Origin: Bryobacteraceae bacterium
GTDB taxonomy: Bacteria; Acidobacteriota; Terriglobia; Bryobacterales; Bryobacteraceae
NCBI GenBank assembly: GCA_019187195.1
Contig: JABAQT010000060.1
Location: 38,830-102,829, forward strand
DNA length: 64,000 bases
Reading direction: 5' to 3'
A model generated the notes under the pieces. It saw only the letters and a program-made list of their open reading frames with translations, made no database searches and was not told the DNA's origin. Shown piece by piece: positions 40,769 through 42,814 of the stretch. Numbering within the stretch: position 1 is the stretch's first letter; every line of letters starts with the position of its first letter. The translations under genes and the position numbers were made by a program.

Positions 40769-41908
40769 CTATTCGAATCGGATCGTAATCGTTGCTAACG
40801 TATTTGCCCGCGTCAGCGGTTTGCCGCCGCTCACGTCCTGCAGGAAGAACATCATCCCATCGTTCACCCAGGTCCCGGTCTTTGCCGATCCCCGGGGGCC
40901 CCCCGACGCGAACAGAGCGCCGTCCGGCTTTCCCACCCGAACCTCCACGCTCTCCAGTCCCGGAACATTCCAACTGATGGTGGTCATCCTCGGCGCTCCG
41001 GCCGCAACGGGTATCGGGTTGGGAAACGCCGCGAACGACCGCTCCACCGCCGGACAGGGCGCGTTCAGCCCCGTCAGGCACACGTTCCCGTCAAACACGT
41101 TCGCCCCCTCGGCCGACAGGTTCACAATATCGTAACCCTGAGGCGCCGGAAGACTCACCGACATCTGTACCGCCGGGTTCCCCATCACCACGTTCTTACG
41201 AAACACGTTCTTCTCGGTTCCGGCCTCCAATCTGATTCCATGCGCATTGCCTACAATCGTGTTTTGTTCAACAAGATTCTCCTGTACCGCCGCTGCAATA
41301 AATCCAATTCCAAAATTGTTTCCTGGAGCCACAAAACCATTTCCACTGATCCGGTTCTCACGGAGCCGGTTCCGGCGGCTGCCGCCGTTCACTCATATCC
41401 CTCCGCACGGAAACGTCATGTTCCCGTTGCGAACCGAGACGTTTCCTTCCAACTCGTACTCGGACGCGGCGTTCAGGTAAAACCCCGCAAAGCAGTTGGT
41501 CGACGCCGTAACGCCGGTGATCTTGCCGCCGCTGCTGTTGTTCACCCGGATACCGAAACTGCGCATTTGCCGGATAACTCCTGGTCCTCGGATGACCGCT
41601 CCGTTCTGTCCGTTTACGTCAATCCCGATCTCCGTTCCCACGCCCCCGCCCGAACAGGCGGCCTCCGCATCCGCTTGACCCGTGATGGCATAACCATCAA
41701 GGTCGAGCGTAATATTTGGCGCGCCAACAACGATACAGGGCGCGCTCTCGACCGCGCACGTCACGTCCTCTACCAGGACGCTGTTTTCCTCGATTCTCAA
41801 CGTCGTGTTGATGGTGCCTCCGATCTCCTTGGCCGGGATCGGCTGTGATAACCACGCGAGGCTCACCATGACGCTGCTAAGCCGGAACAGCATTCTATCG
41901 GGTTTCAT
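40769..41908 (-). pseudogene. Secreted parallel beta-helix protein interrupted by an in-frame TGA
   Basis: From ATG 41908 (signal peptide MLFRLSSVMVSLAWLSQPIPA) the frame runs 171 codons to TGA at 41395-41393 and continues in the same frame from GTG 41392 for another 207 codons. The coil pattern continues across the stop: NMTFPCGGI, stop, VNGGSRRNRLRENRISGNG. So this is one gene with a nonsense codon; CGA-to-TGA or TGG-to-TGA is the simplest origin. Reinitiation at the adjoining GTG is possible. It is the third gene of the MerT/HMA operon, overlapping the HMA gene by 14 bp. No good SECIS-like hairpin follows this TGA. Confidence 0.75.
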
Positions 41909-42404
41909 TTCGTTTGCCGCCTTTCTCGGCATTCCTGATCCGTCCAACCTTGCATTCCACGGTTTCTCCGCTCCCCAGAATCAGCCCCTCCACCAGCAGT
42001 TGCGCCCCCGGTTCGATCGTCCCCGCCCCCGCGCCCAGCCGTACGGGAATTCGATTCCTTCCCGCCACCAGCAGCATCTTCCCGTCACCCCCCGTTTCCA
42101 ATCGTCCCCGGGCTTCCATTCGCATGCGCAGAACGTGGACTCCCAGCGGTCTGAGAACTTCCTCGATCTCCTTCGCCGAGAACCGCGCGTCAGGCTTGTA
42201 GTGAAGCGTGATAGTCTCCTTCGCCGAGCTGATGTCCACCTTCCCGATGCCTTCCATTCGCCGGAATCGGACCTCGCTCACCACCGCGCATACGCCGCAT
42301 GAGATGCCGCTCGTCAAAATCTCCACGTTGTCCACCTGCGCGAGTCCGGCAACCTCCACCCCCACAAGCATCGCTGCCGCCATCAATGATTTCGCCATGC
42401 GCAT
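41895..42404 (-). CDS. Secreted heavy-metal-associated (HMA, MerP-like) domain protein
   Basis: 169 residues. A signal peptide (about 1-22) is followed by an HMA ferredoxin-like domain with the metal motif GISCGVCA (C36, C39), then VRFRRMEGIGKVDISSAKET and FSAKEIEEVLRPLGVHVL. A ~75-residue beta-rich C-terminal extension is unusual for MerP-like proteins. It should bind a soft metal in the periplasm and hand it to a membrane partner. It begins 6 bp after the MerT-like gene (ribosome site GAGGAT), the same order as merT-merP. Confidence 0.87.
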   Translation of the reverse strand: MRMAKSLMAAAMLVGVEVAGLAQVDNVEILTSGISCGVCAVVSEVRFRRMEGIGKVDISSAKETITLHYKPDARFSAKEIEEVLRPLGVHVLRMRMEARGRLETGGDGKMLLVAGRNRIPVRLGAGAGTIEPGAQLLVEGLILGSGETVECKVGRIRNAEKGGKRNETR

Positions 42405-42410
42405 ATATCC

Positions 42411-42764
42411 TCACCGGTAACGAAACCAAAGAAAAACCCACGTTGCCGCCACGATTCCATTGACGCCCAGGCTGACCGCGAGCATTGCCCGGATGCTCCG
42501 GGACCGCATCGCGCCGCCCCGGCCGCGCACCAGCCACATCTCATATGCCAGGGCGGCCACGGCCAGACCGAAAAACACCGGCCGCAAACGCTCCAGCCGG
42601 TAGAAACACCCCGCGCCAACCATCGAGAACACGCCAAGTCCTGCCAGGACTTGCGGCAACACTCATCAGCTTGGCGTAAGCAGAGCCGCGAGTATGGACA
42701 CCCCGGCCGCCAGTCTCGGGCCTAAGTGAAAACCGCGCGTCATCACACTTCGCCCATGTTTCAT
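42411..42764 (-). CDS. MerT-like membrane transporter with tandem in-frame TGA (candidate Sec-Sec) replacing Cys-Cys
   Basis: ATG 42764 opens a frame of 117 codons ending at TGA 42413-42411 if two consecutive TGA codons (42668-42663, positions 33-34) are read through. The conceptual sequence is MKHGRSVMTRGFHLGPRL, AAGVSILAALLTPS, U-U, VLPQVLAGLGVFSMVGAG, and onward. Length (MerT is about 116 residues), three membrane helices, LRPVFFGLAVAALAYEMW in helix 2, and the U-U position in helix 1, where MerT has its metal-binding Cys-Cys, all fit a MerT fold. A SECIS-like hairpin follows. It has an AGG ribosome site, a strong promoter, and an HMA partner downstream. Conventional calling would see only 83 codons from GTG 42662. 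The alternative is a pseudogene. Confidence 0.72.
42633..42657 (-). promoter_or_regulatory. Candidate bacterial SECIS hairpin
   Basis: On the minus strand GCC-(GC bulge)-AAGTCCT pairs with AGGACTT-GGC: ten base pairs, a 2-nt bulge, and an apical loop GGC at 42645-42643. The loop begins 17 nt after the second TGA (20 after the first) and its first two bases are G. The accepted bacterial SECIS form is a stem-loop about 16-37 nt downstream of the UGA with a G in the first two loop positions. It lies inside the coding sequence, as bacterial SECIS elements do. Confidence 0.6.
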
Positions 42765-42785: not shown

Positions 42786-42814
42786 AGTATAACTGGAAAA
42801 TAACTCGCAGTCAA
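42786..42814 (-). promoter_or_regulatory. Strong sigma70-type promoter of the MerT-like operon
   Basis: On the minus strand TTGACT (42814-42809) and TATACT (42791-42786) are separated by exactly 17 nt: near-consensus -35 and -10 boxes. The -10 ends 21 nt before ATG 42764. This is the best sigma70-type promoter I see in the window. Confidence 0.75.

Follow-up and report, generated by a model that had tools for sequence, protein, structure and literature searches.

We found strong support, drawn from sequence comparison and without protein-level proof of selenocysteine (Sec), for the conclusion that a small MerT-like gene in a Bryobacteraceae genome encodes a putative selenoprotein with two adjacent selenocysteines (UU). 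The gene lies in the window, by which we mean the whole 64,000-nucleotide stretch of DNA that was analysed, and the features on which the argument turns are the following.

42786 to 42814, minus strand: promoter-like site of sigma-70 type, TTGACT-17-TATACT, recognised as a sequence pattern
42411 to 42743, minus strand: putative gene for a MerT-like selenoprotein, probably starting at ATG 42743, 110 codons plus a TGA stop, three predicted membrane helices
42663 to 42668 (42668-42666 and 42665-42663), minus strand: tandem in-frame TGA pair at the site of the MerT Cys-Cys, a proposed Sec-Sec
42635 to 42653, minus strand: SECIS hairpin CAAGUCCU-GGC-AGGACUUG, 8 bp, loop GGC, -9.2 kcal/mol
41895 to 42404, minus strand: MerP/CopZ-like metal-binding protein with a signal-peptide-like start and a GISCGVC motif, the operon partner

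The minus-strand frame at 42411-42764 comprises 117 codons and is open except for TGA-TGA at codons 33-34, with a further TGA as terminator (translation MKHGRSVMTRGFHLGPRLAAGVSILAALLTPS-UU-VLPQVLAGLG...WFRYR-stop). The sequence-only reading had described this open frame correctly, but its start at ATG 42764 and its length of 117 codons need correcting: because homologues start close to the codon corresponding to Met8, the start is probably ATG 42743 and the protein 110 codons long. The promoter-like sequence it had noted upstream is present (TTGACT-N17-TATACT at 42814-42786), and similar sites (TTGAC, a 17-18 nt spacer, TATA) precede the gene in four related loci (L062, L065, L072 and L077).

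Translated with read-through, the protein matched the Pfam MerT family (PF02411) over residues 23-80 (E 2.2e-5), although its 24.9 bits did not reach the gathering score of 32.9 bits; the NCBIfam MerT models also matched with scores under their curated cut-offs, and 11 of 12 UU-MerT members matched PF02411 at E <0.01. When Cys-type MerT homologues were aligned, their invariant CC fell exactly on the UU of the window protein, bearing out the earlier claim that the tandem TGA occupies the MerT Cys-Cys site. A structure model of low confidence (pLDDT 63) placed helices at residues 9-34, 40-74 and 82-109, and the MerT criterion of a vicinal pair in helix 1 together with three helices is met by the alignment and this model. 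No close solved structure was found for the window protein, and none of the aligned UU members has the second MerT cysteine pair, that of the helix 2-3 loop.

We surveyed 237 genomes from the family to which the window belongs, 396 sampled from the phylum and 398 from the class (strong matches defined as E <1e-20), and scanned 84,980 species with a DNA pattern. A close homologue was present in six of the 237 family genomes (the window's own included), each with two TGA codons at the same place, while the weaker matches there were ordinary Cys-Cys MerT proteins without stops. One further UU gene came from the phylum sample and nine from the class sample, four of them new; the pattern scan returned 17 stretches, 12 of which were true UU-MerT genes. 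Altogether 17 distinct UU genes were found in various soil bacteria, mostly in Acidobacteriota (Bryobacterales, other Terriglobia, 'gp5' and other members of the phylum, plus one metagenome-assembled genome, or MAG, outside it). TGA-TGA was conserved in all 17, and their final stops were mixed (7 TAA, 6 TGA, 4 TAG). Among the strong matches of the three genome surveys, neither a single TGA nor a CC was found at this position, and the Cys-type proteins were all distant (22-28% identity to the window protein). Conservation of the reading frame extends to either side of the pair, where synonymous variation is frequent and of an ordinary kind. Homologues lacking a conserved Cys or TGA at codons 33-34 would have refuted the original proposal; the pair is instead strictly conserved there and aligned to the CC of ordinary MerT.

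No UU copy was found on viral contigs or plasmids. The sole UU-MerT gene outside Acidobacteriota (L062, VBKX01000270.1) belongs to a MAG filed as Deltaproteobacteria/Myxococcota, a placement that could reflect horizontal transfer or a mis-binned contig. The valine codon GTG directly after TGATGA (42660-42662 in the window) is invariant in 17/17 genes and the next codon varies freely; this GTG could be part of the SECIS context or a restart codon. Five stretches from the pattern scan (L063, L067, L075, L076 and L078) were not recognisable as members of the UU-MerT family. One of them (L063:4129-4157, Chloroflexi MAG JADFNQ010000127.1) lies in a different membrane-protein frame, in which an in-frame TGA-TGA is followed by ILPAVLAGLGG and then by a strong hairpin (z -3.4). 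This frame had no Pfam match and no relative in 15 genomes, and no selB over the cut-off was found in the MAG, which is small; this could be another UU protein or a product of chance.

The hairpin downstream of the pair has its base 12 nt from the first UGA and 9 nt from the second, and its loop 20 and 17 nt from them, respectively. The bacterial SECIS model asks for a loop of 3-9 nt, a stem of 4-16 bp and a G in the first two loop positions, and further for a distance of 16-37 nt from the UGA and an MFE of -7.5 or lower (PMC13188914), and all of these are met by the window hairpin whichever UGA is counted from. The six codons over the hairpin core showed a synonymous difference of 0.00, compared with 0.56 on average for 84 columns elsewhere, among the 13 genes first compared (protein identity median 60%, minimum 49%). 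Outside the hairpin, none of the 16 degenerate columns with an invariant amino acid was also codon-invariant. In three loci (L097, L099 and L100) the segment reads UUVIxPVLAGLG, compared with UUVLPQVLAGLG elsewhere: CAA is replaced by CCG and the facing Leu codon changes silently from CTT to CTG, so that the stem keeps 8/8 pairs, with one A-U becoming C-G through change on both sides and one pair becoming G-U. Since these three loci cluster in the tree (support 87/92), the compensatory change was probably one event. The SECIS-like hairpin suspected at the outset is thus real, with its position corrected to 42653-42635. Longer stretches around it did not fold clearly better than shuffled sequences (z -0.5 to -1.5), and the argument for a SECIS therefore rests on the isolated hairpin, its conservation and the covariation; an Rfam scan of the window at gathering cut-offs gave no match.

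The absence of Sec genes would also have spoken against the proposal, and selA, selB, selC and selD are all encoded in the genome that carries the window (5.8 Mb, 98% complete). We detected tRNA-Sec (selC) with a UCA anticodon (78.6 bits), selB (371 bits against a cut-off of 242) and selA (473 bits), and selD (L019:1501-2511) itself has an in-frame TGA followed, 20 nt on, by a GGU-loop hairpin, so a second gene of this genome also appears to use Sec. selB was over the cut-off in 13/13 carrier genomes tested; because it is common also in relatives without the UU-MerT gene, it is necessary rather than diagnostic. ARAGORN called tRNA-Sec in 10 of 13 carriers. In another (G168) a covariance model matched at 58.5 bits, but ARAGORN called tRNA-Ile, and in the two MAGs G061 and G630 no tRNA-Sec was found.

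The downstream partner (41895-42404) matched HMA and MerP/UxxU_metal_bind models, all under their cut-offs, and a MerP-like gene lies downstream of every UU-MerT copy except L100, where none is shown; the operon partner that had been proposed is accordingly conserved among homologous loci. In four loci (L062, L065, L077 and L098) the partner's CxxC is UxxC, with TGA at the first Cys (GITU..C) and its own hairpin after the TGA in all three that were folded, and here the partner is likely a second selenoprotein of the same operon. Two adjoining operon genes thus show Cys-to-Sec replacement at metal ligands. The other neighbours differ among loci; close to the window gene they include a NosD/beta-helix-like protein, a two-component system and an O-methyltransferase. 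We saw neither a merA-type active-site motif nor a MerR-type pattern in the window or near the homologues, and the genomic context therefore gives no indication of mercury.

Two adjacent minus-strand frames at 40769-41947 of the window, both with NosD/Beta_helix matches, look like one interrupted gene, and in a relative (L032) the start of a downstream protein resembles these frames. In one genome only, an iron-dependent repressor of DtxR/MntR type with an FeoA domain (L064:1272-1970) sits beside the UU-MerT operon, a possible metal link.

Two stops inside a small gene invite the suspicion of a decaying pseudogene or a sequencing error. The same two codons, however, recur in 17 independently assembled and otherwise open genes with the MerP partner intact, and these conserved copies refute that explanation, leaving it practically no chance; decay, which the sequence-only reading had found hard to accept, and misreading of the DNA can both be excluded. 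A change of code, with TGA read as sense genome-wide, is ruled out as well: TGA ends this gene and several relatives, and the tRNA with the UCA anticodon is tRNA-Sec. Ribosomes might alternatively terminate at TGATGA after a leader of 25-32 residues and reinitiate at the overlapping ATG or at the GTG that follows, in which case the shortened product would lack the metal pair. TGATG overlaps are common translational coupling signals, and the GTG straight after TGATGA in 17/17 genes would suit such a restart. We nonetheless consider it highly improbable: a single conserved frame runs across the pair, with frequent synonymous change on both sides, the pair aligns with the CC of MerT and never contains a stop other than TGA, the Sec machinery is present, the SECIS hairpin shows compensatory change, and there is no purine-rich ribosome site just 5' of the GTG.

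Less readily set aside, though unlikely, is that in each passage efficient Sec insertion is confined to one UGA, the other being decoded by a near-cognate tRNA or mostly causing termination, which would yield a mixture of Sec-X and X-Sec. A single hairpin is seen for the two codons, and recoding in E. coli is already partial at one UGA (PMC4513850). A position not read as Sec would be expected to drift to TGY, TGG or another sense codon, yet both codons are TGA in 17/17, and the spacings of 17 and 20 nt both fall inside the published 16-37 nt range. A Sec-Sec protein with another role, in redox sensing or in selenium or organometal handling at the membrane, would be compatible with the tandem reading and has some claim to consideration, though a lesser one than metal import: no merA motif or MerR pattern lies nearby, neighbours vary, and a DtxR/MntR-type repressor is found near one copy only (L064). 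Metal handling is favoured over such a role by the resemblance to MerT, whose CC occupies the corresponding site, and by the constant MerP-like partner.

We therefore return to the Sec-Sec metal carrier, and regard it as very likely that the two genes form a metal-uptake or metal-handling operon in which both Sec residues of the UU MerT-type protein are inserted through one hairpin, decoding and transport being inferred. The host would be a Bryobacterales-like acidobacterium, and the first operon gene would specify a small three-helix MerT-type protein in which the helix-1 Cys pair has become a Sec pair. At the first UGA, SelB and Sec-tRNA would bind the hairpin 12 nt downstream and Sec would be inserted; one codon on, with its base at 9 nt and its loop at 17 nt, that hairpin would serve the second UGA as well; and the UGA at the gene end, having no such SECIS, would terminate translation. 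In MerT, the Cys-Cys pair receives metal from MerP, and the Sec-Sec pair may likewise take a soft, Hg(II)-like metal ion from the secreted MerP-like partner. A soft-metal carrier with a vicinal diselenol, its two UGAs relying on a single SECIS, is thus probable, but insertion at both UGAs by a single hairpin, like metal transport, is deduced from the genomic data, and we could cite no bacterial precedent for one hairpin serving two UGAs. Recoding of UGA in bacteria is inefficient (30-40% in vivo at one UGA; PMC4513850), so the full-length yield could be low. With somewhat less assurance, we think it likely that such Sec-Sec membrane metal carriers, one SECIS serving two UGAs, occur across the Acidobacteriota, with MerP sometimes a selenoprotein too.

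Comparison with known systems sets the limits of what is new. With MerT (PF02411; NCBIfam NF010314 and NF033560) the window protein shares three predicted helices, a vicinal pair in helix 1, an LExxRPxF-like motif at the start of helix 2 and a MerP-type partner downstream, whereas it has UU in place of CC, sub-cut-off scores and no cysteines in the helix 2-3 loop, and neither a merA motif nor a MerR pattern was seen near its gene. A putative mercuric transport selenoprotein (PF02411, motif C/SxxU, one Sec; Zhang and Gladyshev 2007) is listed in Table 1 of PMC13188914; it is a MerT-family protein with Sec presumably at a metal-binding cysteine, with one Sec as against two here. NCBIfam NF045683 (MerT/CopZ fusion-like heavy metal transport selenoprotein) is likewise of MerT type, but is a 235-position fusion model to which the window protein scores only 11 bits against a cut-off of 375. 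NF041115, a UxxU metal-binding (seleno)protein, describes a small metal-binding domain like the MerP partner (UxxC in four operons), although the window's partner has CxxC and reaches 29.7 bits against a cut-off of 95. The only report of consecutive Sec residues that we found is an algal PDI_e with a GUGUU motif, presented in 2020 as the first protein with Sec-Sec (PMC7539508); it is eukaryotic, with a PDI-like thioredoxin fold and a SECIS in the 3' UTR, and is no transporter, whereas here the SECIS lies beside the UGAs. The UU motif is absent from the 119 prokaryotic selenoprotein families of a 2026 inventory (PMC13188914). Because a single-Sec MerT and a MerT/CopZ selenoprotein are already listed, the MerT kind of selenoprotein is known, and it is the tandem Sec that appears new; our literature search was incomplete, and we cannot exclude that UU had been reported before.

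Automatic annotation would probably miss this gene or call an 83-residue fragment from the GTG. If the interpretation is true, the window protein would, going by the 2026 inventory, be the first from a prokaryote with a Sec-Sec pair, and its gene would offer a natural system for testing whether a single SECIS can serve two consecutive UGAs. It would also represent selenium acting as a metal ligand in a transporter and not in a redox enzyme, in a phylum with little-studied selenoproteins.
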